Below, piece by piece: positions 5,850 to 22,180 of a stretch of 26,455 nt of DNA. The stretch is from a virus. A program made the translations under genes and the position numbers. How positions within the stretch are numbered: the first letter of the stretch is position 1; the number at the start of each line of letters is the position of its first letter. The stretch is from positions 1 to 26,455 of IMG/VR virus record IMGVR_UViG_3300024265_002405; one strand, given 5' to 3'. The notes under the pieces were generated by a model. That model worked only from the letters and a program-made list of their open reading frames with translations, ran no database searches and was not told where the DNA came from.

Positions 5850-6008
5850 ATGAAAAAAGCTATCTTAGCAGTATCCGCACTAATTGTAATCGGTTTTTTC
5901 GTAGGTTCTTTAACAGCTTGCAAGTACATACAACACGTAGTGCCTGAAGTAGCAGCTTACGAGGCGCTACCAGTTGCCCCGCCAACCCCAGATGAAGAGG
6001 TATCTTAA
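5850..6008 (+). CDS. small phage lipoprotein, 52 aa
   Basis: A type II signal peptide is readable: 'MKKA', a hydrophobic core through residue about 20, and a lipobox Leu-Thr-Ala-Cys with the acylated Cys at residue 24. The mature peptide is only about 29 residues and ends in a Pro/Glu-rich stretch. The start at 5850 is preferred to the upstream ATG at 5805, which lies inside the stem-loop. The gene ends with a TAATG overlap with the next. It may act in the envelope, for example in superinfection exclusion or as an outer-membrane spanin; neither can be decided, and no partner inner-membrane spanin is seen. Confidence 0.7.
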   Translation: MKKAILAVSALIVIGFFVGSLTACKYIQHVVPEVAAYEALPVAPPTPDEEVS

Positions 6009-6472
6009 TGACACCAAAACAATGCGACAAAAGACTTCGGGTACTACGAGAAGAGCAGCGACATCATGTAATTGCCCCGATTAAAGCAGATGAACGCGCA
6101 GCTTTTTACGTAAAAAACCTCTGGATTCATAAATTCGAGACAGACCCACACCGAACTTACGCGCATTCAATGCCTACACAAGTTTCTTTTTATGCTGCAG
6201 ATCTCGGCACCATATCTTACGACGACTTTTTTTACTGTATAACACTCGATGACATGGAATTTATCGAGTACGTCGTAAGAAGATTCTTGGAAGTTTGTGG
6301 GCAATCGTTCTACGAGACCCCAATCATGCCTGCCAGTTCTGCCCCTGGGACCGAACTCAGGACTGTACCGTCATCGTTGCTAGCGTTGTTAATGACTAAT
6401 GCTATGATGGTACAATTCCATACGCTTCTGGTAGCAGCTTGTGATATGGAGAAAATTAAGGAGGCAAGTTAA
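6008..6472 (+). CDS. paralogue A of a three-gene unknown family, 154 aa
   Basis: First of three tandem relatives. Shared landmarks are the start 'MTPKQCDKRL', an 'LW.H.F' about 45 residues in, a 'VSF' strand, 'SYDDFFYCITLDDMEFIEYV' in the middle and a helical C-terminus with 'TNAMMVQF'. The family looks soluble, acidic and mixed alpha/beta, without an enzyme motif I recognise. Start and stop overlap the neighbours by one to two bases. Function is unknown; duplicated small genes in early phage operons are often host-takeover or anti-defence proteins, which is inference only. Confidence 0.75.
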   Translation: MTPKQCDKRLRVLREEQRHHVIAPIKADERAAFYVKNLWIHKFETDPHRTYAHSMPTQVSFYAADLGTISYDDFFYCITLDDMEFIEYVVRRFLEVCGQSFYETPIMPASSAPGTELRTVPSSLLALLMTNAMMVQFHTLLVAACDMEKIKEAS

Positions 6473-6897
6473 TGACACCAAAACAATGCGAAGAACAATT
6501 ACAAGAGCTATTGGGGAGCGAAAACAAACCCCTCCCAACTGGCCAAAATGAGCTTAAATGCCTCTATGCAGAGATATTGTGGTACCACCATTTCCAAAGA
6601 GACCAAACCAAACCGCTTCTTGGCAAACCATTAGAGGTTTCTTTTTGCAGCACATTCATGGAACATCATTCATATGACGACTTTTTTTACTGCGTGACCC
6701 CAGACGGCATAGACTTCATTGAGTACGTCATGGGTATTATCACAAATAGTAATTTTGTCTTGGAACTAGATTCTTATAGCCTTTTAAAAGACGCATTTGC
6801 CAGGACGCTGCTGATGGCGAACATGATGAAAACACGATACCAGGAACTCTGGGCAGCAGCATACGACATAGCCATAGCAAAGGGGGTAGCAGAATGA
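6472..6897 (+). CDS. paralogue B of a three-gene unknown family, 141 aa
   Basis: The second copy keeps 'MTPKQCEEQL', 'LWYHHF', 'VSF', 'SYDDFFYCVTPDGIDFIEYV' and 'MANMMKTRY'. It is the closer relative of copy A in the central motif, while the N-terminal loop and C-terminus differ strongly. Translation is coupled on both sides (TAATG upstream, ATGA downstream). An AAGGAGG site for this gene lies within copy A. No known family is recognised. Confidence 0.75.
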   Translation: MTPKQCEEQLQELLGSENKPLPTGQNELKCLYAEILWYHHFQRDQTKPLLGKPLEVSFCSTFMEHHSYDDFFYCVTPDGIDFIEYVMGIITNSNFVLELDSYSLLKDAFARTLLMANMMKTRYQELWAAAYDIAIAKGVAE

Positions 6898-7313
6898 CAC
6901 CAGAACAATGTGAAGAACGAATGCACGGCTTGCTTGGATGTAACCAAAATGAAACAAAACTTTATTGCAGCAAACCAGTACTCCCAGAAGACCCTGACTT
7001 GCTAGCGAGCATGTACGTTGAAGTGCTCTGGGATCATCGTTTTTATGCCGAAGAGACACAACAGACCCTAGAGGACGTCCCTCTAACTGTTTCTTTCAGA
7101 AGTGCAGGTAGCAACAGAAGCTTTTTTAAATACTTAACTGATGACGATCTGGATCTCGTCACCTATGTCCTGGACACATACGACAGGTGTATGTATCACG
7201 GCGATTTCATATATTGTAGCTCTGCTTCGAGTGTGATGAAGAAGGCTCTAAAAATGTCACACTTCATGGTTACAAGAATGCGGGCTAAGGAGGCCAAATG
7301 CCATCAACAATAG
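6894..7313 (+). CDS. paralogue C of a three-gene unknown family, 139 aa
   Basis: The third and most divergent copy: 'MTPEQCEERM' at the start, 'LWDHRF', 'LTVSF' and a diverged central motif 'SFFKYLTDDDLDLVTYV' in which the Tyr-Asp-Asp-Phe-Phe-Tyr core is altered. The C-terminus keeps 'MSHFMVTRM', parallel to the other copies. It overlaps the RecT-like gene by 16 bases. The conserved Met-Thr-Pro-x-Gln-Cys start in all three is unusual and may be a functional N-terminus. Confidence 0.75.
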   Translation: MTPEQCEERMHGLLGCNQNETKLYCSKPVLPEDPDLLASMYVEVLWDHRFYAEETQQTLEDVPLTVSFRSAGSNRSFFKYLTDDDLDLVTYVLDTYDRCMYHGDFIYCSSASSVMKKALKMSHFMVTRMRAKEAKCHQQ

Positions 7314-10029: not shown

Positions 10030-10449
10030 ATGGGTAACTACCAGGAGTTCACTCTCCTTGACGACAAGATGCCAGGATTCAACGAAGTTCTGGACGCTGC
10101 CAAATCTTTTGGGACTCGAACAACCAAAAAATTGGCGAATAGTTACACCGGAATGAAGAGAAACTGGATGTTGAGGATTACGGATGTACTTAAAAAGGAA
10201 AAAATTCACCCGATAGAGACAATATACCTCTCTATGCTATGGCTAGAGCCGAACAAAAGACGAGACCCAGACAATATCGCATCATTCATCAAGTTCATCC
10301 TGGATGGCTTACAGGCTGGTGGGATAATAAAAAACGATGGATGGGCGCAGGTTAAGGGCTGGGAAAACAGGTTTGTAATTTCACAAAAAAGAGGGGTCAC
10401 AGTGAGGATATACGATGCTGCAAAAAGATATAATCTTAAAGGAATTTAA
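10030..10449 (+). CDS. rusA: RusA-type Holliday junction resolvase
   Basis: A 139-residue protein with the RusA core: 'NKRRDPDNIASFIKFILDGL' at about residues 75-94, then 'AGGIIKNDGW'. The acidic residues Asp79, Asp81, Asp92 and Asp103 occupy the family's metal-binding positions, and the length is typical. RusA-family nucleases cut four-way junctions made during phage recombination and replication and can debranch DNA before packaging. The gene overlaps the following XRE gene by 35 bases. An AAAGGAA site precedes the ATG. Confidence 0.85.
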   Translation: MGNYQEFTLLDDKMPGFNEVLDAAKSFGTRTTKKLANSYTGMKRNWMLRITDVLKKEKIHPIETIYLSMLWLEPNKRRDPDNIASFIKFILDGLQAGGIIKNDGWAQVKGWENRFVISQKRGVTVRIYDAAKRYNLKGI

Positions 10450-10687
10450 GGAACGGTTCGGCGATAATATACGTGCGTTGCGAGCAGCCTCTGGGCTTAC
10501 AGGAGAGGAGTTCTCAACGTCAATAGGGGTGTCAAGGAACCATTTATATAGCTTGGAGAACGGACAGGCCCATGGGATCGTGCTTAGTGGCCTATATTAT
10601 TTAAATAACAAGATAAGCGTGCATAAATTGATGGAAGATGACCTGTATTTGGACATAATCTACAAAAAAATAAAGCATACGAAATGA
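10415..10687 (+). CDS. third XRE-family HTH regulator
   Basis: A 90-residue protein with a Cro/C1-type HTH from about residue 14: 'FGDNIRALRAASGLTGEEFS', 'TSIGVSRNHLYSLENGQAHG'. It is not a close relative of the pair at 4767-5465. It starts inside rusA after a GAGGA site and ends with ATGA into the terminase nuclease gene. This position, between replication and head genes, suits a switch to late expression, but that is inference. Confidence 0.8.
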   Translation: MLQKDIILKEFKERFGDNIRALRAASGLTGEEFSTSIGVSRNHLYSLENGQAHGIVLSGLYYLNNKISVHKLMEDDLYLDIIYKKIKHTK

Positions 10688-11292
10688 ATACCTCAACGAT
10701 AATAATCGGATTGGATTTAGGTCAACAGAACGATTACACTGTCTTATCAGTCCTGGAGATGGATCGCACAGTCCTGCAAAGCTCCGGTGTTATCTACAAC
10801 TTGATTTATCTTAAAAGATTCCCCCTAAAAACAACGTACCCTACGCTTGTTAATTGGGTAGCTTGGTTTATAAAAAAAACATTTATGAATTCTGGATATC
10901 TTTTGGTTGTGGATTGCACAGGAGTCGGCAGGCCGATAGTGGACATGCTCAGAGAAAACGACCTTGATCTACTATCACTGACGATAACAGGAGGCACACA
11001 ATGTAACTGGCGAAAAGGCAAAGAAGTAAGTGTCCCCAAAAAAGAACTAATATCAAGCCTACAAGCAGTAATACAAAGTTACAGAATAAAGATAGCATCG
11101 GATATAGACCACCTAGAAGCATTAAAAAAAGAGTTCTTAAACTTCAAAGCACGAATAACTTCATCAGCTAAGTCCCAGTTTTCAGCGGAATCATGGTGCC
11201 ACGATGATATTGTCTTGTCAATAAGTTTCGCTACATGGTATGGTGAATATGCGTCACGGAAAGGTAGAAAACTAAGAATAATAACAGGATAA
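10684..11292 (+). CDS. stand-alone terminase large-subunit nuclease domain
   Basis: A 202-residue RNase H-fold protein matching the C-terminal nuclease half of phage TerL: 'GLDLGQQNDYT' (Asp11 and Asp17), 'LLVVDCTGVGRPIVDML' with Asp77, 'VPKKELISSLQ', and 'WCHDDIVLSISFATW' with Asp174 and Asp175. These are the metal-binding acids that cut concatemers during packaging. No Walker ATPase half precedes it; the frame begins cleanly at an ATGA junction. The ATPase must be encoded elsewhere, or this is a split or specialised form. Position just before the head genes supports a packaging role. Confidence 0.82.
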   Translation: MNTSTIIIGLDLGQQNDYTVLSVLEMDRTVLQSSGVIYNLIYLKRFPLKTTYPTLVNWVAWFIKKTFMNSGYLLVVDCTGVGRPIVDMLRENDLDLLSLTITGGTQCNWRKGKEVSVPKKELISSLQAVIQSYRIKIASDIDHLEALKKEFLNFKARITSSAKSQFSAESWCHDDIVLSISFATWYGEYASRKGRKLRIITG

Positions 11293-11304
11293 CGGGGGCT
11301 CATT

Positions 11305-14300
11305 ATGGGAATACCAGGACTAGGTTTATTAACTTCTGAATTAGTATCTACAATAATTCTACCATGGGTAGGAGGCATAGAGATGGCTGGCATAGCTGCA
11401 GGTGCAGCTGGTTTGACGCTTGTCTTTTTCGCGGAGGTTATGATTTTGCCTATGTTAATCACACTCGTCCTTGTTGGTGGTGCTGTATTCCTCGGTGGGT
11501 TAGCCGGTGGAGCACTCGGTGGCTTACTTACCGGAATCGGTTGGGGCAGCAGCGGATCAAGAATAGCCATACCGTCCTTAACTGGTGTAAAAATACCAAC
11601 GACATCAACGATAACTCCTTTTTGGGATCCAAGTTGGGATCCAAACTCTGATTTGCTACCCCCGCCTGACCTTCCAGACCCTGATGACGATTGGGATCCA
11701 AAAAGATGCGATGTTAAAATACCGGATTTAGACATCACAACAAAAGACATCAACGATGCAAGGTACCTTGTAAGCAAATTAACTCAAGGGTCTGGTGAAG
11801 GAGCGGTACTATTGACGCTAGCCCCGCAAGCAGTCAGAGAATTGGTTTCTGGGTGGGGTCAACGTCAAGTGAACTTAGTTGGGCCTGTTTTCGATCAAAA
11901 CACAGGAACGTGGAGACCACAACTAACAGGAGACAAAGCAACGTACTTGCACCAACAATATAACGTAGAAGGTCTACGTCCAGCACCCGATGCTACATTA
12001 CGATTGCACGCCGACACTCCACAAGACGCATTCACAAGCTTTCCAGACCCACAGTCCGGCAACCCATACTTAGACAGGTTAGTTATGCGAGGACTTCAGA
12101 CAATAGAACCAGGGCCAGACGGGTTACCCCAAACGTATCAACCACATCCTATTGTGTTAATTAGAACACCTGAAGGCAACCTAAAAACTCTGTTAGTTAG
12201 GACAGGAAATGACTACCTAAACGTCTTGTTAGACAGAGGTGTGCAAACATTACAAGACTTGCCTCCATACGACCCCCACGACCCTCTAGAATTAAAAATA
12301 ACCGAACTACAACTTGGATACGAAGAACTCGTGAAGCTTCCACCGGAAGACAAGATCAGCAGAACAACCGAGGCGCGTATACAAGCATTGAGAGGAAACG
12401 TAACACCAGAGTTAGAAGTGCTTTTAACTCGAGATCCTGCAGAAGTAGTCATTGACATGAGTGCTTTGACAATCGGGGAAATAGCTCAAAAGTTGATATC
12501 ACTCCCCACTCCAACACGTATACCAATCGAAACACCAATCCCAGACGCTAAAACTTTACAAACCCCTCAAGGCAAACTTAAATATATAGACCAACGTATT
12601 AAAGAATTAACTGAAAGAATGTTCAAAGAAGGCGAGGATATCGACAAGGCAGAGTATGAAGAATTACAAAGCCTTTTGAAAATACAAGATGCGCCAGAAG
12701 CACCGCCATTGCCAACTGAAAAACCAACGGCCAAGAAACCACTGAAACCGTACAAAATCGCCAGGAGAACCAAAATAAAGCTAGCCAGAAACGAACGCAA
12801 GATGGCTAGGTTTTACAAAAAAGCAGCCAAGTTACGAGCGAAAGAAGACAAGGAGAAAGCCAAGGATAGAAAGAGGATATCCCAAACATGGAAAAAGAAA
12901 GACGACCGATGGAGTCGAGAAGTTGTACCACAGGCAGAAAAGCCACAGCCACAGACGCAAGAGATCCCAGAAGCTCCGGAAATAGATCCTGGTTCATATT
13001 ACATCTCTAAAAGTGGCAAACTTGTATATAAGTTGTTCGGTGGCGGAAAGACAAAGAAAGAGACTCAAGAAGCAATAGATGACTTGCAAGATCAGTTGGA
13101 TATATTGAACGACGACACCCAAGAAGAAACAGAAAACGTTGAAAAAACAACAGTAACTAAGCAACAACGAAAAAATGACGTATCTAAAAAAGCTTTTTTA
13201 AGAAGACAAATCGCAAGATTAAGAAGAGACCTTCAGCCAGCAGAAACAGAAGCACCAATATTCGACGTAAATCTATTCTTCCAAGACACAATACAAACAC
13301 CGAACCAACAACCAGTAACAACGTCATTTGCGCAACAAATGCTCGATCTAGCAGTAACAAGGAGACGCGAAGCAGAAGCCAATGCAGCAGAAGACCAGGC
13401 AAATCTAGCAATGGTAAGAAGAGGCGAAGCAGCAGCTAAGCGAGAAACTAACCGTCGTAGGAAAGAAGCCCTTACAAGGGCGGCCATGGACATGATGGAC
13501 ATGACTTTGACCTTTCTCGGCCCGGAGATGGATCGGCTCCGGACCCAAATTATAGACTCGTCGCCAAGTAAATTATTAAGCCTTAATCTTCCTTTACTAG
13601 AGACTTTCTGGCGGTGGTATCGAGATTACACACACCGAGGGGCTTTGGTGAATCTAGCCCTCCCGATACCTGCTCCCTCTGTAGAGGAGGAGTACGATTC
13701 AGATGGTGAATCTGAATTTGATTCAGATGATGACACAACTCAAGAACCTGTGTACTTCAAAGACTACGATCCAGACGACGATCTTGACCCTAGCCAATTC
13801 TACAGATCAAAAGACGGGACAATTCTACGTAAACTGAAAGGTGGTGGCAAGACAAAGAAGAAAACTCAGGACGCAATAGATCATCTTCAAGATCAGTTGG
13901 ATAGATTGGACGACGATACTACAGAAGAAACAGAAAATATTGAAAAAACAACTGAAACTACGAAGCAACGAAAACAGTTAGCACGAAGAAAATTTTTATT
14001 ACAAAGACAAATTATACTATTAAGAAGGCAAATCGCGAAATCAAAAGAAGTACAAGTCCAGGAATCTGTTCAAACAGAAACACAAAGACCTGAGTTTGAC
14101 GTAAATTTATTTTTCCAGGATACGAACCAGATGCCTGCCCAGCAACTATTTCTAACCCCCGAAGCCCAAGGTTATTGGGGCATGTTTAAACTCTTCGGGA
14201 AAAAAACAAAACCTAGTCCTTCTGATTTCTATAGAAAAAGAGACGAGGATCGGAAAACAGCTGCTCCTTGGAAAAAACGAGCGATTGCTAGACGAGATAC

Positions 14301-17300
14301 GAGGTATAACAACCTAACACGACTGAAAGACTACTGGAAACGCTTTAAAAAACCAATCGTAGATTTAGTAAATCGTAGAGAAACCCGTAGGAGTTACCGT
14401 ACGTTTCTTCTAGCCCTTGAAACACGAAGAGAAGGGATCGCTACAAGTGAGATGGTACCAGTTCCTCCTCGTGCGATGGAAATGGAACCGGAACCATCTG
14501 CTGTGTTCTATGACTCAGACGATTATTCTTCAGAGCTCTCAGATATAGATGACGACACAATAACAGGATTAAAGAAATTCAAAGATTACGACTCAGATGA
14601 TGATTTTAGCCCAGACTTTTACACATCTAAAAGTGGCAAACGTATATATAAACTAAAGGGCGGAGCTAAGAAAAAGAAAAAACAAACTATCGCTGAGGAC
14701 TTTGATGACTTGCTAGTTGCTCAGGGATTAGTCGAGCCGATATCAATCAGCACTGTGCTTGACGAGATCCAAGAAGCCAACCCAGAAGAGAACATCGAAA
14801 AAAAAGAGGTGGCACAACTATTTGAAACCTTGACAGGAACAGTACAACCACAGGTTGAGGTGCAAGTAACTCCCCCACAAGAAGTTAAGGTGCAAGTAGC
14901 AGCCCCACAAGAAATAGAATTAGGTTATATCACGTCGCAAGCTGAGCTAGACCGAATAACGAAAGCAGAGGACAAGTATGACCGCGAGGTTAAACAGTTC
15001 AAGAAGTTCAGTGCTAAGTTAAAAAGAATTAAAATTCTAAAACAAAAAAGACGAGAACAGCAACGGAAAAAAGTAGCACTTCAATACGAAAGAATTAAAA
15101 TTCTAAAACAAAAAAGACGAGAACAGCAACTGAAAAAAGTAACACTTCAATACGTAAGAGGAGTGCCACACGAAGGGTTTATATTCTACCCTACCAATCC
15201 TGACCCGATGCCAGGGTTTGGAGGTACAACGGTACTCGAGAGCGCAAAATCATTAGAACAAGCATCTAGTTACTTTGAAACTAAAAAAATACTATCTGCC
15301 ATGACTACTATTCAACTAGAAGCTATCCAAAGGCATTACGACCTTGGCAGACCAGGAAGCATTGTAAGCAAGAATGTTTTTATATCAGACGACCCAAGCA
15401 AGTTAAAAACACTAGCTGACTCTCCCCTAGACTTTCTACGATTTCGAGAAGAAACGGAACTTGAGTCAATAGCCAAACTCGATCTTTTACGTGCAAGAAC
15501 TATCATAACGAGGATACGGCAAGGGGACGAGACCGTACCTGTCGACCTACCTGGGTGGTCAGAAGGTGTCATGACAGTACTCAGAAACTGGTTTACAGAT
15601 AACCCAGAGGATCTTTCCAAACTTCCATTTTTATCTGTACGAAGTTTCAGCCCAGCAAACTTACGTACAACCAGAGAAACCCGGCAACTCAACAGAAAGC
15701 TGAAAAGACAACGCGCGGAAATGATCCTTTACGAAGAAAAACGTCAACATCGTCTAGCTGCACCAGTAAAAAGTATTGAATCAATGATCGAGGAAAGTTA
15801 TCCCTCTGAAGAGGTGACACAAGAGAGTCCAAAGCCAATAGAGACTCTTGAGAGATTACACTTGCAATTCTTGAAATTAGAAACAAGGGACAAAACTTTT
15901 CACGTCCCTTCTGTTATGACAGGACTAAAAAGACTTATAACCGTAAGAGAAGAACTCCTTTTCTGGCAAAAAAAAGAATTGTTGCTACAAAGCGAGGAAT
16001 CAACGCTCCATTTAAAAGGCATAGAGAGGCAAGAAAAACACCTCGTAATTCTCAAGAAACAACTCGCAGGCATAAAAAAAACGTACGAAGAACACCCGGA
16101 CTTATTTAAAGAAGAGTTTCTAAGCACCCTCGAAACTCGCGAAAAAAGCCTACGGAAAGAGGCAAGAAAGGCAGCCAAGGTTGCAATAGAAGCACAAGAT
16201 CAATATCAACGTTTACATGCAATCATGGAATCTAGTCAGATTAAATCTGACTTTATACAGGGTGTCGGGCAATTTAAAGACATCCGTAATAAAAAAAAAC
16301 CTCTTCCAGCAGCTAAATCCAAACGGTTAAAATCCATAATACAGGAGCATGCTTTACGGTTGAGCTTGCTAAAAAAGGGCGAGCTGCTTGGCGACGTCTT
16401 GCGCCCTCTCGGTAGCGTCGCAGAAAGCGCAACGCCAGAGGAATTCACCACAGAACAACAAGAGGAGGTAACTGCACAGTTTGAACCTTATCGCAACCGG
16501 AAGCTCCGGGAAGCAATGAAAAAACGAATTGCAGCACGAAAAATCAAAATAGATGCACTAAAAAAAGAGCTAAAACAAGTTCTGCGTGATAAACAAGAAA
16601 ACAAAGAGAAACACGAGAATAGATTAAAAGTAGCTGCAGACACAGAGCTTCGCACTCGTATCATAGGAGGTAAAGTAGTATTAACAGAACACAAAAAACC
16701 AGTGTTCGACAAATTACTAGCAGATCAAGCAAATCAAAGAGGGAAAGCCGCAGCTAAAAAAATTAGTGCAGAACTGGACAAACTAATAGCACTCCGAGAA
16801 GCTAGCGAACCCACAGAGCTTCGCACTCGTATCATAGGAGGTAAAGTAGTATTAACAGAGTACAAAAAATCAGTGTTGGACAAGAGAAGAGCGGCAGACG
16901 CCTTTTACGCTCAAAAGGAAAAAGAACTGGTTGGAGAACGCGAACATAAAACTATATCAATCCCGCTGCCTAAAGCATTAAAACGCAGGATCTCTAAAAA
17001 ACGGGCCAAGATAAAATCGGAAAAACGTTTAAAGAGCATAAGGAAAGAGCAACTAGCAGTCAAAGACTTCGCACAAACTGTTGAAGCCATCAAACGCGAG
17101 GAAAACATATCAAAAGAACTCGACGACAAAGAATCTGATCTCAAAATAACTTTGCGTAATATGGAAATCGAGATCGAAGCAGAGGAACGGCAAGAAAGAG
17201 ATAGGTTGCGTAAAGAAAGGCTAGACCGAATCAAGGACAACCTCAACAAACAAGCAAGCACCATGCTAGATAGTATCGTTACTGAACCGCTACTCAAAAA

Positions 17301-17853
17301 CTGGTTAGCCACGTCTAAAAAGAGCCTGAAAGACTTTACTTCTAAACGTGGTCGCAGAAGAGCTAAACGTAAGCTGAAGAAAAGATTCAAACAATTCGGA
17401 GGAGAGATAGATTCTGTTTTCAACAAGTTGAAACCAAGCAAAACATTCAACCCGGAGAAAGCAACAATTTCCAGAGCTCGCGATCGCGCCCCCGTTCCTA
17501 CAGTAGCACCACGCGGTGGTGGTGGTGGTGGAGACGGTGATGGAGACGGTGATGGGGGTGGGTTGACTCCTGAAAAGAAAAGGAAACTATTAAAGATCGC
17601 AGGCTTGTCAGCCGGTGTAGTTATAGCAGTTGGGGCAACCATTGCGCTCGGTATAGGTATCACCGCGCTTATCATACAAGACACAAAAGACAAACCAGAG
17701 CCAGATCCAGAGCCAACCCCAGAACCATGGCCTGAACCACCAGACCCATGGCAATTGAGGTCAGCACATCCAGACTTCCAAGATGGATTTAAAGACTACT
17801 TCGATCCTCAAATATTCATAGAAAAAGCAATGACTAACAGGAGGTTATTCTAA
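11305..17853 (+). CDS. giant modular head-region protein, 2182 aa
   Basis: One uninterrupted frame covers a quarter of the window, starting after a GGGGG site. In order: an N-terminal Gly-rich hydrophobic region with two or three spans (about residues 5-80); a Trp-Asp-Pro motif stretch and a mixed domain to about 450; a basic region; two modules of about 270 residues starting at 561 and 828, with a partial third near 1101; a 22-residue tandem repeat at 1241-1284; long Lys/Glu/Arg-rich coiled coil to about 2040; a twin repeat at 1780 and 1837; a Gly/Asp run; a final span at about 2099-2125; and a Pro/Glu tail. I recognise no catalytic motif or family. Its place between TerL nuclease and portal suggests an internal or ejection virion protein; a tape measure is possible but the location is atypical. 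Confidence 0.7.
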   Translation: MGIPGLGLLTSELVSTIILPWVGGIEMAGIAAGAAGLTLVFFAEVMILPMLITLVLVGGAVFLGGLAGGALGGLLTGIGWGSSGSRIAIPSLTGVKIPTTSTITPFWDPSWDPNSDLLPPPDLPDPDDDWDPKRCDVKIPDLDITTKDINDARYLVSKLTQGSGEGAVLLTLAPQAVRELVSGWGQRQVNLVGPVFDQNTGTWRPQLTGDKATYLHQQYNVEGLRPAPDATLRLHADTPQDAFTSFPDPQSGNPYLDRLVMRGLQTIEPGPDGLPQTYQPHPIVLIRTPEGNLKTLLVRTGNDYLNVLLDRGVQTLQDLPPYDPHDPLELKITELQLGYEELVKLPPEDKISRTTEARIQALRGNVTPELEVLLTRDPAEVVIDMSALTIGEIAQKLISLPTPTRIPIETPIPDAKTLQTPQGKLKYIDQRIKELTERMFKEGEDIDKAEYEELQSLLKIQDAPEAPPLPTEKPTAKKPLKPYKIARRTKIKLARNERKMARFYKKAAKLRAKEDKEKAKDRKRISQTWKKKDDRWSREVVPQAEKPQPQTQEIPEAPEIDPGSYYISKSGKLVYKLFGGGKTKKETQEAIDDLQDQLDILNDDTQEETENVEKTTVTKQQRKNDVSKKAFLRRQIARLRRDLQPAETEAPIFDVNLFFQDTIQTPNQQPVTTSFAQQMLDLAVTRRREAEANAAEDQANLAMVRRGEAAAKRETNRRRKEALTRAAMDMMDMTLTFLGPEMDRLRTQIIDSSPSKLLSLNLPLLETFWRWYRDYTHRGALVNLALPIPAPSVEEEYDSDGESEFDSDDDTTQEPVYFKDYDPDDDLDPSQFYRSKDGTILRKLKGGGKTKKKTQDAIDHLQDQLDRLDDDTTEETENIEKTTETTKQRKQLARRKFLLQRQIILLRRQIAKSKEVQVQESVQTETQRPEFDVNLFFQDTNQMPAQQLFLTPEAQGYWGMFKLFGKKTKPSPSDFYRKRDEDRKTAAPWKKRAIARRDTRYNNLTRLKDYWKRFKKPIVDLVNRRETRRSYRTFLLALETRREGIATSEMVPVPPRAMEMEPEPSAVFYDSDDYSSELSDIDDDTITGLKKFKDYDSDDDFSPDFYTSKSGKRIYKLKGGAKKKKKQTIAEDFDDLLVAQGLVEPISISTVLDEIQEANPEENIEKKEVAQLFETLTGTVQPQVEVQVTPPQEVKVQVAAPQEIELGYITSQAELDRITKAEDKYDREVKQFKKFSAKLKRIKILKQKRREQQRKKVALQYERIKILKQKRREQQLKKVTLQYVRGVPHEGFIFYPTNPDPMPGFGGTTVLESAKSLEQASSYFETKKILSAMTTIQLEAIQRHYDLGRPGSIVSKNVFISDDPSKLKTLADSPLDFLRFREETELESIAKLDLLRARTIITRIRQGDETVPVDLPGWSEGVMTVLRNWFTDNPEDLSKLPFLSVRSFSPANLRTTRETRQLNRKLKRQRAEMILYEEKRQHRLAAPVKSIESMIEESYPSEEVTQESPKPIETLERLHLQFLKLETRDKTFHVPSVMTGLKRLITVREELLFWQKKELLLQSEESTLHLKGIERQEKHLVILKKQLAGIKKTYEEHPDLFKEEFLSTLETREKSLRKEARKAAKVAIEAQDQYQRLHAIMESSQIKSDFIQGVGQFKDIRNKKKPLPAAKSKRLKSIIQEHALRLSLLKKGELLGDVLRPLGSVAESATPEEFTTEQQEEVTAQFEPYRNRKLREAMKKRIAARKIKIDALKKELKQVLRDKQENKEKHENRLKVAADTELRTRIIGGKVVLTEHKKPVFDKLLADQANQRGKAAAKKISAELDKLIALREASEPTELRTRIIGGKVVLTEYKKSVLDKRRAADAFYAQKEKELVGEREHKTISIPLPKALKRRISKKRAKIKSEKRLKSIRKEQLAVKDFAQTVEAIKREENISKELDDKESDLKITLRNMEIEIEAEERQERDRLRKERLDRIKDNLNKQASTMLDSIVTEPLLKNWLATSKKSLKDFTSKRGRRRAKRKLKKRFKQFGGEIDSVFNKLKPSKTFNPEKATISRARDRAPVPTVAPRGGGGGGDGDGDGDGGGLTPEKKRKLLKIAGLSAGVVIAVGATIALGIGITALIIQDTKDKPEPDPEPTPEPWPEPPDPWQLRSAHPDFQDGFKDYFDPQIFIEKAMTNRRLF
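12985..14690 (+). repeat. two ~270-residue modules plus a partial third in the giant gene
   Basis: Module 1 begins at 12985, module 2 at 13786, and the partial third near 14605. Each opens with 'Y.SK.GK..YKL.GG.K.KK'. The first two continue with 'AID.LQDQLD', 'EETEN.EKTT', a basic helix and 'FDVNLFFQDT'. Modules 1 and 2 end in acidic spacers that share 'FKDYD.DDD'. The copies are diverged at DNA level, so the duplication is old. Confidence 0.75.
15025..15156 (+). repeat. tandem 66-bp coding repeat
   Basis: Two adjacent 66-base units (15025-15090, 15091-15156) encode 22 residues each, beginning 'RIKILKQKRREQQ'. They differ at only a few bases, so this duplication is recent compared with the large modules. 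Confidence 0.85.
16641..16859 (+). repeat. 48-bp identical repeat, 171 bp apart
   Basis: The segments 16641-16688 and 16812-16859 are identical over 48 bases and similar for about 24 more. They encode 'TELRTRIIGGKVVLTE' twice, with the second copy 57 codons after the first. The near-identity indicates recent duplication or gene conversion. Confidence 0.85.
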
Positions 17854-18431
17854 TGGTTAAATTTTCCCCAGAACCGTTTTCCCCACGTCCCTACGGAGCT
17901 TTGCAGGAAATGGTAGAGCAAATGTCTCCTGGGCTTACTGCGTGGCAAAAACTGCATTATCTAGACCCGAAGGCTCCAGGTTTTTGTAAAAAGAAAGACG
18001 AGCTATTCAACCAAGCGATGCTCGATTCAATGACGGGTGGAGGTGGAGGTGGCCTCCCAATGGGCGGCGGCGGAGGAGCTCTGGAACCAGAGATTGGGCC
18101 AGATGGGAAGCCAGTAAAATACGAAAAAAAGACAATAAAGCAAAGAACCAAGGAGTTTTTAAAAAACTTTAAATACCAAATGTTACATGGTTGTGACGGA
18201 AGCATGGGATGCTACGGCCCACCACCACCGGAACCACCACCAATTAGGCCACCACTACCAGTAGGGAGAGGCATTATAACCCCGGAGTCGGTAACTCGAC
18301 TTGACCCGCACTCCAATACAGTGATCGCTAGCAGGAACCAGCTTTGCAGAAAGGCTGGGGGAGGAACAAAGGATACAATCGATATGTGCACGCCCACAAT
18401 AATCTTTAAAGAAAAGGATATTCTTGTATGA
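17853..18431 (+). CDS. Gly/Pro-rich head-region protein, 192 aa
   Basis: The gene is coupled to the giant gene by a TAATG overlap, with AGGAGG upstream. Residues about 60-76 are almost all Gly ('TGGGGGGLPMGGGGG'); a basic helix follows ('YEKKTIKQRTKEFLKNF'), then a Pro-rich segment ('YGPPPPEPPPIRPPLP'). The C-terminal part is more ordinary. The low-complexity linkers suggest a flexible virion or scaffold-like protein that works with the giant neighbour, an inference from position. No family is recognised. Confidence 0.7.
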   Translation: MVKFSPEPFSPRPYGALQEMVEQMSPGLTAWQKLHYLDPKAPGFCKKKDELFNQAMLDSMTGGGGGGLPMGGGGGALEPEIGPDGKPVKYEKKTIKQRTKEFLKNFKYQMLHGCDGSMGCYGPPPPEPPPIRPPLPVGRGIITPESVTRLDPHSNTVIASRNQLCRKAGGGTKDTIDMCTPTIIFKEKDILV

Positions 18432-18640
18432 AATACTTAGGCTCAATCATTGATAAACTTAAGAACTTTGTATTTTCAACAACCGCTGCAAACCTTATAC
18501 GGATTATGTGTATCCTGGCTGTCTTCATCGCCCTGGAAATATCATTCATCCTAGCGTACACAGCATACGATATGCTTAAGTCCGGAGACACATACATTGC
18601 ACGGGGCAGCTACGCGACATCTGACACCCATAACCGATAG
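18428..18640 (+). CDS. small membrane protein, 70 aa
   Basis: One strong membrane span at about residues 21-46 ('LIRIMCILAVFIALEISFIL' and on), preceded by a basic amphipathic N-terminus and followed by a short polar tail. It overlaps the preceding gene by four bases. It could be a holin, but holins are rarely placed directly before the portal; an internal virion membrane peptide acting with the giant protein is an alternative. No family is recognised. Confidence 0.65.
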   Translation: MKYLGSIIDKLKNFVFSTTAANLIRIMCILAVFIALEISFILAYTAYDMLKSGDTYIARGSYATSDTHNR

Positions 18641-18651
18641 AAAGGCATACG

Positions 18652-20019
18652 ATGCCAAAACTTAACGAAATAGCTACATTGTCCTCTAAACTTGCGTTCG
18701 CCAATACGATGTACGAACGATACCAATCCAACTCATTGTTTGGAAAAAACCTTAATAGCAAGCTTTACGATGCTCTGGGGTTCCCTGCAAATATAACGTA
18801 TCGAGATTACGTGGACAAATATAGAAGGCAGGACGTGGCGAACAGGATAGTAAATGCACCTGTGGATGGATCATGGTCTAAAGCACCTGCTGTCTATGAA
18901 ACAACGACATCAGAAACACAATTTGAGAAGGATTTCAAAGCTATCGAACAAGAGCTTGACCTTTTTTCTAACTTACACGATCTGGACGTTTTAGCAACGC
19001 TAGGACGTTACAGCATCCTATACCTTGGGCTAAACGACGGAGTTGACCCATCTATACCAGCCACAAGAGCTTCTATGATAAATTACGTAACTCCTATACC
19101 AGAGGACAGGGCAGAGATACAGACTTGGGACAATGAGTCCACTTCACCACGATATGGTGCACCCTTGTCTTATACAATAACAATAAATGCTGATGCGGCA
19201 CCATCGATATCCCAAACTGTGCATTACTCTAGGATAATCCATGTCGCTGAGAACACCTTGGATAACAAAGTGTATGGAATACCAGCCCTAGAACCTGTAT
19301 TTAACAGGCTGTTGGGCCTCGAAAAATTGGCTGGTGGATCGCCTGAGATGTACTGGCGTGGAGCTAGACCGGGTTATGTAGCTCAATCGTCTGAGAACAT
19401 GATAATAACTGACAGCCAAGTTGCATCCCTTAAAACAGAACTCGACAAATTTGTAAACAAAATGGACCGTTTCATATACGCAGAGGGCGTTGACATCCAA
19501 CCATTAGCGCAACAAGTAGTGTCACCAACCGACCACATTGACTGCCAATTGAAATTGATATGCGCAGCAACCCAAATACCACTTAGGATCCTAACCGGGT
19601 CAGAAAGAGGCGAGCTTGCATCATCACAAGACGCACTGGGTTGGCTGACTTACCTAGAGACCCGTAGAGTGGCAGTGGCAGAGAAACTAATACTACGACC
19701 CGCCATAGACAAGTTCATCGAGCTAGGGCTTATCTCAGCCCCAGTAGGAGACGAATACACGGTAGCGTGGGAACCACTGGTAGTAACCTCCGAAAAAGAA
19801 AAGGCTGAAATCGCTTTGATACACATGCAAGCCATAAAAACTTGGGGTGAATCCATAGGAGGGCAGGATATATACCCGCCTGAGTTCTTGCTTAAACAAC
19901 TTGGCAAATCAGATGAAGAGATCGAATTGCAATTAGCAGTGTCTGACGAAGAAGTGGCACTAGAAGAACCGATAGCAACAGACGACGCGACCAAAGAAGA
20001 CGAACCGATGAAAGAATAG
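18652..20019 (+). CDS. phage portal protein (DUF1073-like)
   Basis: A 455-residue portal of the DUF1073 type. Readable landmarks are 'YRRQDVANRIVNAPVDGSWS' near the start, the 'LGRYSILYLGLNDG' strand pair, 'GGSPEMYWRGARPGYV' and, at about residue 315, 'LTGSERGELASSQDALGWL', a typical portal segment before the long stem/crown helices. The C-terminus is acidic. The portal forms the ring through which DNA enters and leaves the head and on which terminase docks. The minor head protein follows after one gene, the usual neighbour; the methyltransferase interrupts that pair. An AAAGG site precedes the ATG. Confidence 0.85.
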   Translation: MPKLNEIATLSSKLAFANTMYERYQSNSLFGKNLNSKLYDALGFPANITYRDYVDKYRRQDVANRIVNAPVDGSWSKAPAVYETTTSETQFEKDFKAIEQELDLFSNLHDLDVLATLGRYSILYLGLNDGVDPSIPATRASMINYVTPIPEDRAEIQTWDNESTSPRYGAPLSYTITINADAAPSISQTVHYSRIIHVAENTLDNKVYGIPALEPVFNRLLGLEKLAGGSPEMYWRGARPGYVAQSSENMIITDSQVASLKTELDKFVNKMDRFIYAEGVDIQPLAQQVVSPTDHIDCQLKLICAATQIPLRILTGSERGELASSQDALGWLTYLETRRVAVAEKLILRPAIDKFIELGLISAPVGDEYTVAWEPLVVTSEKEKAEIALIHMQAIKTWGESIGGQDIYPPEFLLKQLGKSDEEIELQLAVSDEEVALEEPIATDDATKEDEPMKE

Positions 20020-20027
20020 GGGCTAAT

Positions 20028-20726
20028 ATGAATGCTACAACAAAAACTACACGAGGTGCAATAAGAACAAAGAAAACAATCCTAAGCTTGTTCGACTGCT
20101 CAGGCAGTTGGAGCAAACCATACAAAGAAAAAGGGTACGATGTTGTTAAGGTAGACATCAAAAGCGGAACAGACATACGAGACTTCGAACCTATTGATTG
20201 TCACGGGATACTAGCAGCTCCGCCGTGTACTGCTTTTTCCATCGCTGGCAACCAATATTGGGCAAAAAAGGACAAAAACGGTGCGACAAAAGAAGCCTTG
20301 GACTTGATAAGTGCAACTTACAGGCTTATACTGACATGTAACCCTGTTTGGTGGGTTCTTGAAAACCCAGTAGGTCGCTTAAAGTATTGGCTCGGGAAAC
20401 CTGTTATGTACTTCAACCCTAATGATTACGGAGGTTGGTTACAAGAAACAGAACGGACACACCCACTAGCACCATACCAAGATGCCTACCAGAAAAAAAC
20501 GTGTTTATGGGGAGTTTTCAATACTCCTGTAAAAAACCATGTCGCAGCCCATTCCGACGAAAAAGAACGGTTTTGGGTACAGAAAAAAAAATTCACAACA
20601 AGCACAGGCGAATGGATTTACGACAGGCCGTTCATAGAAGGAATGACCTACGATGAGAAGAGAGCCGAGATAAGAAGCGTCACCCCGTTGGGGTTTGCTC
20701 GAGCTTTCGCAAACGCAAATATTTAA
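20028..20726 (+). CDS. C5-cytosine DNA methyltransferase-like protein
   Basis: A 232-residue protein with the core of Dcm-type enzymes: an AdoMet-binding 'ILSLFDCSGSWS' (motif I), an acidic 'VVKVDI' strand end, the catalytic 'PPCTAFS' with Cys67 (motif IV) and 'LENPVG' (motif VI). It is shorter than full methylases and no target-recognition domain is obvious, so the target, and even activity, is open. In phages such enzymes can protect DNA from restriction. It sits between portal and minor head gene and shares its first 19 bases with the latter, which suggests insertion. A GGGG site precedes the ATG. Confidence 0.8.
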   Translation: MNATTKTTRGAIRTKKTILSLFDCSGSWSKPYKEKGYDVVKVDIKSGTDIRDFEPIDCHGILAAPPCTAFSIAGNQYWAKKDKNGATKEALDLISATYRLILTCNPVWWVLENPVGRLKYWLGKPVMYFNPNDYGGWLQETERTHPLAPYQDAYQKKTCLWGVFNTPVKNHVAAHSDEKERFWVQKKKFTTSTGEWIYDRPFIEGMTYDEKRAEIRSVTPLGFARAFANANI

Positions 20727-20759
20727 CGGAAAAACTCAACATGAATGCTACAACAAAAA
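20028..20759 (+). repeat. 19-bp direct repeat at the starts of two adjacent genes
   Basis: ATGAATGCTACAACAAAAA occurs at 20028-20046 and 20741-20759, the first codons of the methyltransferase and of the minor head gene (both Met-Asn-Ala-Thr-Thr-Lys). The two proteins are otherwise unrelated, so the repeat probably marks insertion of the methyltransferase. Only the end segments repeat. Confidence 0.75.
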
Positions 20760-21673
20760 GCGATCCGACAAAGACAATAACCCTCCGTAAAATGTACGTA
20801 CAACAATTTAGGCACAGATTTACGGCTATAAAAAGAGCATCGACCCAAAGCATCGTGCAAAATGATTGCTTCGGGCTTATCAACTCCCCTGTCCAAGCTG
20901 CGTACCGATACACGAAACAACAACCGTTCCCTTTATGGAAAAAGTACACCGAGCCTGTCCCATACCATGGGTTTGCCTTTGCCTCAGAGGCTGAGAAGGT
21001 ACCTCTGTTTATGAATTGGCTTAAGACAATGCAGGATAACGTTATATTCCAACAAGACGTCATGTCTCTAGCCCCGAAAGATGCCGAGAACATCTGGACA
21101 AATATTTACTTGTCAGACGGGTACAAACATGGCATACTATGGGCAAGAAACAACGTTAAGAACGACAAAGAATTGATGAAGCATTATAGAATCTCTGATG
21201 AAGACGTTAAAACTGACGCAGAAAGTATAAACACGGCCTTCGTACACAGCACTCACATGAACAGAGCAGCTTTGATCTTTACAAGGACATATGGGGACTT
21301 GAACGGTATCTCAGCAACAATGGACGGGCAGATAAGCCGGATTTTGGCGGACGGAATAACCATGGGACATAACCCCGTGAAAATAGCAAAAGAAATTGCT
21401 GGTAGGATAGACAATATCGGAATCCACAGATCTACCATACTAGCTAGAACAGAAATAGTACGAGCGCACCACATCGCTTCTATCCAAACGTACAGAGATT
21501 ACGGGATACTAGGGGTTCAAGTTAAGGCTGAATGGCAAACAGCAGGGGACTCGAGGGTCTGCGAGCTATGTGCGCCACTAGATGACAAAGTATACACTTT
21601 AGATGAAGTCGAAGGAAAGATACCAGTCCACCCGCAGTGTAGATGTGCTGCTTTACCACTTGTGATTGATTAA
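20741..21673 (+). CDS. minor head protein (Mu gpF / SPP1 gp7-like)
   Basis: A 310-residue head morphogenesis protein. The conserved C-terminal domain is clear: 'RTEIVRAHHIASIQTYRDYG', then 'WQTAGDSRVCELCAPLDDKV' at about residues 264-283, and 'IPVHPQCRCAALPLV' at the end, with the paired Cys and His residues typical of the family. Such proteins act inside or at the portal vertex during head assembly and may be injected. The ribosome site is weak, unlike that of the preceding gene with which it shares its first six codons, so translation may rely on coupling. Confidence 0.85.
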   Translation: MNATTKSDPTKTITLRKMYVQQFRHRFTAIKRASTQSIVQNDCFGLINSPVQAAYRYTKQQPFPLWKKYTEPVPYHGFAFASEAEKVPLFMNWLKTMQDNVIFQQDVMSLAPKDAENIWTNIYLSDGYKHGILWARNNVKNDKELMKHYRISDEDVKTDAESINTAFVHSTHMNRAALIFTRTYGDLNGISATMDGQISRILADGITMGHNPVKIAKEIAGRIDNIGIHRSTILARTEIVRAHHIASIQTYRDYGILGVQVKAEWQTAGDSRVCELCAPLDDKVYTLDEVEGKIPVHPQCRCAALPLVID

Positions 21674-21690
21674 CCAAAAGGGGTAGCAAC

Positions 21691-21987
21691 ATGAAACGCA
21701 ATCCTGAACTACTAGCTTCGATCCTGAGAGCAATGGAGGGGGGGATACCCTACAAATGCACAAACAACGAACTTCGGTATCATCTACTTCTAGCAGCCGA
21801 TTACGGTTTAGTAGATTACAAGCTTCCACCCAAGGGCAAAGAAGCCCTTGATATACTTCATGAATTTGACAAAATCCAAATCATGGGGGAACTAATACAA
21901 CAGGGCGGGGGAAAAATGGATACTCGGGACCCGACCGATACTCTCTGGTATAAATGTGTACGGGCCTTCCAGTGGGTAATCACTTAA
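21691..21987 (+). CDS. DUF2513-like phage protein, 98 aa
   Basis: The start 'MKRNPELLASILRAMEGG', the 'YHLLLAADYGLVDYKL' helix and a following 'GKEALDILHE' match DUF2513, a small winged-helix-like family found in phages and mobile elements with no known function. An AAAGGGG site precedes the ATG. The C-terminal part ('WYKCVRAFQWVIT') is less typical. It opens the accessory block between head genes and SSB. Assignment is by pattern, moderately sure. Confidence 0.65.
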   Translation: MKRNPELLASILRAMEGGIPYKCTNNELRYHLLLAADYGLVDYKLPPKGKEALDILHEFDKIQIMGELIQQGGGKMDTRDPTDTLWYKCVRAFQWVIT

Positions 21988-22012
21988 AAACGAGATGAAA
22001 AGGGGGTTTAAA

Positions 22013-22180
22013 ATGAAAAAGAAACTAAGAACCGCAATAACCGCGTTTACGCTTGCTGCTTTGATAACGTTCGGATTTTACGCAGGTCAAAGCCAAGCAT
22101 GCTCCACCTGCCCAGGACGTACAATATATATAGAAAATGAGGATGGTGGGTATGACATTATCTTATTCGGCCATGATTAA
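22013..22180 (+). CDS. small exported peptide, 55 aa
   Basis: The start at 22013 is chosen because AAGGGGG lies seven bases before it; an in-frame ATG at 21995 has no good site. A signal peptide is clear: 'MKKKLRTA', a hydrophobic core, then 'GQSQA' with probable cleavage before Cys30. The mature part is about 26 residues, starts Cys-Ser-Thr-Cys and is acidic at the end. The Cys is not preceded by a good lipobox. Envelope location is inferred, function unknown. The stop overlaps the next gene. Confidence 0.65.
   Translation: MKKKLRTAITAFTLAALITFGFYAGQSQACSTCPGRTIYIENEDGGYDIILFGHD

Follow-up and report, generated by a model that had tools for sequence, protein, structure and literature searches.

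The ejected protein gp16 of phage T7 contains two hydrophobic regions and inserts into liposomes; the sequences of ejection proteins are known to diverge fast (PMC8954989). The packaged polyvalent proteins are likewise giant and are encoded near the portal and MuF genes (PMC5512222). The window analysed here, a stretch of viral DNA of 26,455 nucleotides (IMG/VR record IMGVR_UViG_3300024265_002405), contains a gene for a giant protein between the genes of a terminase nuclease and the portal. With the podovirus ejection proteins (T7 gp16 type, 1318 residues; the N4-like giant vRNAP) this protein shares a very large size, hydrophobic regions and a location among virion genes, and the fast divergence of that group would be compatible with it. 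In contrast to them, it shows no sequence similarity and possesses no enzyme domain; an RNA polymerase domain of the N4-like virion type was not found with PHROGs or Pfam. Moreover, its relatives have tail genes of the long-tailed type, and the site between nuclease and portal is empty in these relatives. The polyvalent proteins (DarB, MuF-fused and related forms) also combine giant size with a position near portal and MuF, but they are defined by enzyme domains, none of which was detected in the giant with Pfam, PHROGs or NCBIfam.

The giant gene is a single open reading frame of 2182 codons, uninterrupted between the two neighbours identified in Table 1, as the first-pass annotation had described it. 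The chance of an open frame of this length is about 7e-59 at the base composition of the window. The codon usage correlates at 0.91 with that of the eight other genes on the same strand (the giant being left out of the reference), and at 0.87–0.90 for each third of the gene. The ATG is preceded by a ribosome-binding site, GGGGG, and lies 12 bases past the nuclease stop. The stop of the giant gene overlaps the start of the 192-residue gene (TAATG), which has AGGAGG upstream; the stop of the latter overlaps the start of the 70-residue gene (ATGA), and the portal gene follows 11 bases on. The gene is real, and because of the overlapping starts and stops and the short junctions the three genes are considered a coupled cassette of 7.3 kb, neither end of which looks like an assembly joint.

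Table 1. Features of the giant gene, of its neighbourhood and of two giants from distant phages (positions in the window unless preceded by L057 or L058).
Feature	Position	Strand	Characteristics
Stand-alone nuclease (RNase H-like), half of split TerL	10684..11292	+	phrog_27743 E=1e-32; PDB TerL nuclease domains E=3.7e-9
Giant orphan protein	11305..17853	+	2182 aa, 249 kDa, pI 9.2, one Cys; without relatives in searches
N-terminal hydrophobic region	11305..11532	+	residues 1-76, 2-3 spans, Gly-zipper (GGAVFLGGLAGGALGGLLTG)
Internal repeat unit 1	12985..13785	+	residues ~561-827; YISKSGKLVYKLFGGGKTKK core ... acidic tail, FKDYDPDDD
Internal repeat unit 2	13786..14604	+	residues ~828-1100
Internal repeat 3, preserved core YTSKSGKRIYKLKGGAKKKK only	14605..14680	+	starts ~1101
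Tandem pair, 22-aa basic unit (KRIKILKQKRREQQ.KKV.LQYE)	15023..15159	+	residues about 1240-1285; TRF, 95% matches
Pair of 24-aa unit TELRTRIIGGKVVLTEHKKPVFD	16641..16883	+	57 aa apart; 94% DNA identity
C-terminal membrane span	17584..17655	+	residues 2094-2117; Gly/Asp-rich stretch before, Pro/Glu-rich tail after
192-aa Gly- and Pro-rich protein	17853..18431	+	own AGGAGG; no match
70-aa protein, one membrane span	18428..18640	+	start overlaps stop of 192-aa gene
Portal protein	18652..20019	+	PF06381 E=4.2e-31; phrog_146 E=2.2e-55
Cytosine DNA methyltransferase, accessory	20028..20726	+	between portal and MuF; PF00145, phrog_757
MuF-like head morphogenesis protein	20741..21673	+	PF04233, phrog_758
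L057 giant	L057:12700-20597		2349+ aa; after portal-like gene, preceded by Gly/Tyr-rich small protein
L058 giant	L058:12806-20254		2140 aa; after portal-like gene, preceded by Gly/Tyr-rich small protein

The giant protein belongs to no family in Pfam, PHROGs, NCBIfam or PADLOC, sequence comparison with the PDB returned chance helix matches only, and tblastn revealed nothing related in 50,697 phages and 72,556 plasmids. Eleven related records contain no relative of it. The IMG/VR viral contigs, queried with the whole giant, residues 81-465, the repeat profile and the 192-residue protein, also gave nothing related in an exact-short-peptide scan, a method that would miss distant relatives. In a search of bacterial genomes, for which residues 85-460 only served as the query, one match (E = 1.8e-4, 1/200 genomes) was rejected, since it overlaps a frame antisense to a likely efflux membrane-fusion gene. 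Judged by its sequence, the giant is an orphan that resembles nothing in the searched collections. The first-pass annotation had called it a protein of unknown family without a catalytic motif, and both statements agree with these searches, in which Pfam, PHROGs and NCBIfam offered no catalytic family; a match to a known tape measure or enzyme family, named there as a possible refutation, was nowhere significant, the matches to tape measure families being faint. The two small proteins of the cassette have no convincing database match, and the MuF-like protein of the window carries no recognised effector domain. Regarding the host, a nuclease scan of 84,980 genomes yielded only relatives of 28–39%, and a portal search of 399 genomes distant portals only.

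The giant starts and ends with predicted membrane-inserting hydrophobic spans (residues 13-75 and 2094-2117, judged from hydropathy alone), in accordance with the earlier description. Behind the N-terminal spans follow a section in which Pro, Asp and Trp are abundant (residues 77-150), the most globular-looking part (150-460) and a very basic stretch (480-545). The body is charged and in stretches poor in Pro and Gly. The several repeat classes noticed at the outset are indeed present: a three-copy unit of about 270 residues, a 22-residue tandem pair and a 24-residue pair. The copies of the long unit begin near residues 561, 828 and 1101, thus at a spacing of about 270 residues, and the first two are 46% identical over that length, with an alignment score of 376 against a best of 77 among 200 shuffles. 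The third copy scores 89 and 78 against the other two when its core is included (shuffle best 67 and 62), and 41 and 33 without the core (shuffle best 58 and 50). The 24-residue unit contains RIIGGKVVLTE and has its copies near residues 1780 and 1837.

The long coiled coils that had been attributed to the protein were not recovered. In a test of heptad a/d positions, 2/306 windows of the giant exceeded the 1% threshold, where 2.2 would be expected, whereas the same test on the tape measures of three relatives was clearly positive (10/89, 16/102 and 6/76 windows, about 0.7–0.8 expected). An earlier, looser periodicity test had given 9 windows against 3 expected, which leaves room for a few short amphipathic helices. 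Charge-hydropathy, like the heptad measure a crude index, predicts 66% of the giant to be unfolded, compared with 20% of the portal, 24% of the MuF protein, 1% of the nuclease and 5–12% of two tape measures. Structure prediction, proposed earlier as a check, was carried out with AlphaFold2 without relatives; the models were poor, with a mean pLDDT of 38 for residues 85-460, too low to be informative, and a pLDDT of 51 for the other model.

The genomic setting has been established by comparison with nine relatives (L002-L007, L049, L050, L128; roughly 42–51% identity). The nuclease shares 42–49% identity with relatives; where it was compared alongside the portal and MuF proteins, the identities were 43–47% for the nuclease, 46–51% for the portal and 39–47% for the MuF protein. 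In all nine the portal gene directly follows the nuclease gene: the two overlap slightly or are up to about 50 bases apart, counted to the earliest start that the portal frame allows. This direct adjacency indicates that the giant and its two small companions form an accessory cassette private to this phage. Accessory genes are also found elsewhere in the packaging region of these phages; those between the ATPase and nuclease genes encode membrane and secreted proteins and a glutamate dehydrogenase-like protein, and the insertions between portal and MuF comprise a ThyX-like gene, the methyltransferase in the window and several small genes in L128.

The most extensively mapped relatives carry on one strand the genes for TerS, ATPase, nuclease, portal, MuF, capsid, tape measure and fibres, and on the other RecT-RepO-DnaC-RusA, with RusA (where placed there) adjoining SSB and the fibres. 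The window is collinear with this arrangement (TerS minus, replication plus, fibres minus) except for one block, HTH-nuclease-giant-192-70-portal-methyltransferase-MuF (10415-22180), which is found between RusA and SSB on the plus strand. The block is therefore opposite in strand to TerS and the fibres and continuous with the replication genes, downstream of which it is placed, unlike in any mapped relative; within it, the nuclease gene overlaps the preceding HTH gene by ATGA. Genes for the terminase ATPase and the major capsid protein are absent from the window and presumably lie outside the contig. Consequently, the placement of the giant "in the head operon" does not hold, since a nuclease-portal-MuF trio displaced to the strand opposite TerS and fibres, and attached to the early genes, is found instead. 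Because the block shares the early strand with the replication genes, late expression of the giant is not assured. A scan for promoters and terminators gave a result no better than shuffles.

The best explanation, to which a probability of roughly 40% is assigned, is that the giant is an accessory virion-internal protein, packaged and injected ahead of or with the DNA. It would be made together with the nuclease, portal and MuF proteins, would enter the head near the portal and would leave it before the DNA or together with it, as a basic chain, unfolded for the most part, that fits a narrow tail. The glycine-zipper ends may then enter the host membrane and the middle, rich in Lys and Arg, may hold DNA, the Gly/Pro-rich and the one-span proteins acting as putative partners. 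That the protein is packaged and ejected, inserts in the membrane, binds DNA and works with both partners is inferred from several features: (i) a translationally coupled cassette between the TerL nuclease and the portal, with MuF in the same run; (ii) Gly-zipper hydrophobic regions at both ends and a basic pI; (iii) a mostly unfolded (predicted) body that could pass a long tail, in a phage whose relatives encode tail proteins and a tape measure; (iv) the presence in L057 and L058, two distant phages that have the same nuclease, of unrelated proteins of 2.1–2.3 kilo-residues whose genes lie close to the portal gene, in each case behind one for a small Gly-rich protein. The L058 giant resembles one family of internal virion proteins faintly and below significance, and neither of the two belongs to a clear family. 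They resemble the giant of the window in being encoded near terminase and portal, but differ from it in their place after the portal, in composition and in the lack of sequence similarity. Counting against ejection are the lack of similarity to ejection or internal virion proteins in PHROGs, Pfam, the PDB and the phage tblastn search, the absence from all nine close relatives and the location of the block on the early strand. The status of an ejected virion protein is thus suggested as a functional fit and a lead, not as membership in a family. The first-pass annotation had proposed a DNA-delivery or membrane-spanning machine; the anatomy and the neighbours fit this idea, whereas the absence from the site in all nine close relatives makes the giant an accessory and not a core machine. 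That it represents a new class, a giant, mostly disordered protein anchored in the membrane at both ends, encoded in a three-gene cassette that accompanies the nuclease-portal-MuF set, and injected by a long-tailed phage to build a conduit for its DNA that exists for a time only, is unlikely.

Alternatively, the giant may be a "moron-like" accessory protein that never enters the virion; it would be made in the infected cell and held by both ends in the inner membrane, while its long charged middle would recruit or tether something such as phage DNA or host proteins, or help to exclude other phages. The relatives carry unrelated accessory genes, many of them for membrane-bound or secreted products, at various sites in the packaging region; the block adjoins the replication genes on the early strand, and the Lys/Arg residues before the C-terminal span are typical of a cytoplasmic side. 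Both neighbours, nuclease and portal, have late packaging functions, however, and no defence family of PADLOC is matched. Because of the early-strand position and the habit of collecting membrane genes, such a cell-made membrane protein, doubtful as it is, appears nearly as likely as an ejected one.

The remaining explanations are much less probable. Cleavage of a polyprotein or precursor after (L/I)xGG into smaller virion or membrane proteins is suggested by five such motifs that lie away from the membrane regions (at residues 577, 844, 1117, 1786 and 1843; 0.6 expected) and by the third repeat, which keeps only its KLKGG core. The form of the motif recalls the GG-X sites of eukaryotic virus proteases. 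To our knowledge, GG-X cutting is not known in tailed phages; moreover, the five motifs represent only two independent duplicated sequences, and no matching protease gene was recognised within the 26,455-nt window, itself part of the genome only. This reading is improbable. An assembly chimera, with the cassette or the whole block derived from another genome, would account for an arrangement unlike that of all relatives, but it is even harder to reconcile with the junctions within the cassette and at its two ends, which overlap or span 11–12 bases and have ribosome-binding sites, and with a codon usage like that of the neighbours. A tape measure protein out of place, which the large size, the hydrophobic segments and the faint family matches might suggest, is close to excluded: the heptad periodicity present in the tape measures of the relatives is missing, and those proteins are encoded separately, with 537–753 residues, in the tail module and not between nuclease and portal.

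If present in virions, the giant protein would rank among the larger ejected proteins, unusual for a long-tailed phage, and would demonstrate that an ejected protein can be acquired in the form of an accessory cassette beside the portal. If not, it would add to the giant orphan membrane proteins that phage accessory genes encode.

The phage separately provides an example of a terminase nuclease gene located outside the operon of its TerS partner. The nuclease profile, built from alignment A1 and compared with the terminase nuclease domains of the PDB, together with a separate open reading frame of about 250–267 residues in the relatives that matches terminase ATPase families, indicates that the nuclease is one half of a split terminase; its family, phrog_27743, is annotated as "unknown function" in PHROGs. 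Among the literature results listed for split terminases, none was pertinent. The stand-alone nuclease, apart from the ATPase gene, is widespread in the group (L002-L007, L010-L109), and accessory genes separate the two in the closest relatives, among them the complete-looking glutamate dehydrogenase-like gene at L002:8240-9589. A cytidylate kinase-like gene lies upstream of the terminase ATPase gene in four related phages (L006:6843-7610, L007, L049 and L050). In the window, a gene for a metallo-beta-lactamase-fold hydrolase (phrog_392; 1733-2443) adjoins the small terminase gene, and the early region contains three tandem, apparently paralogous genes whose products start with MTPKQC or MTPEQC (6008-7313). 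The EamA-type transporter gene at positions 2-382 has a relative in a related phage (L005:4773-5741) and is probably carried by the phage rather than belonging to a host flank.
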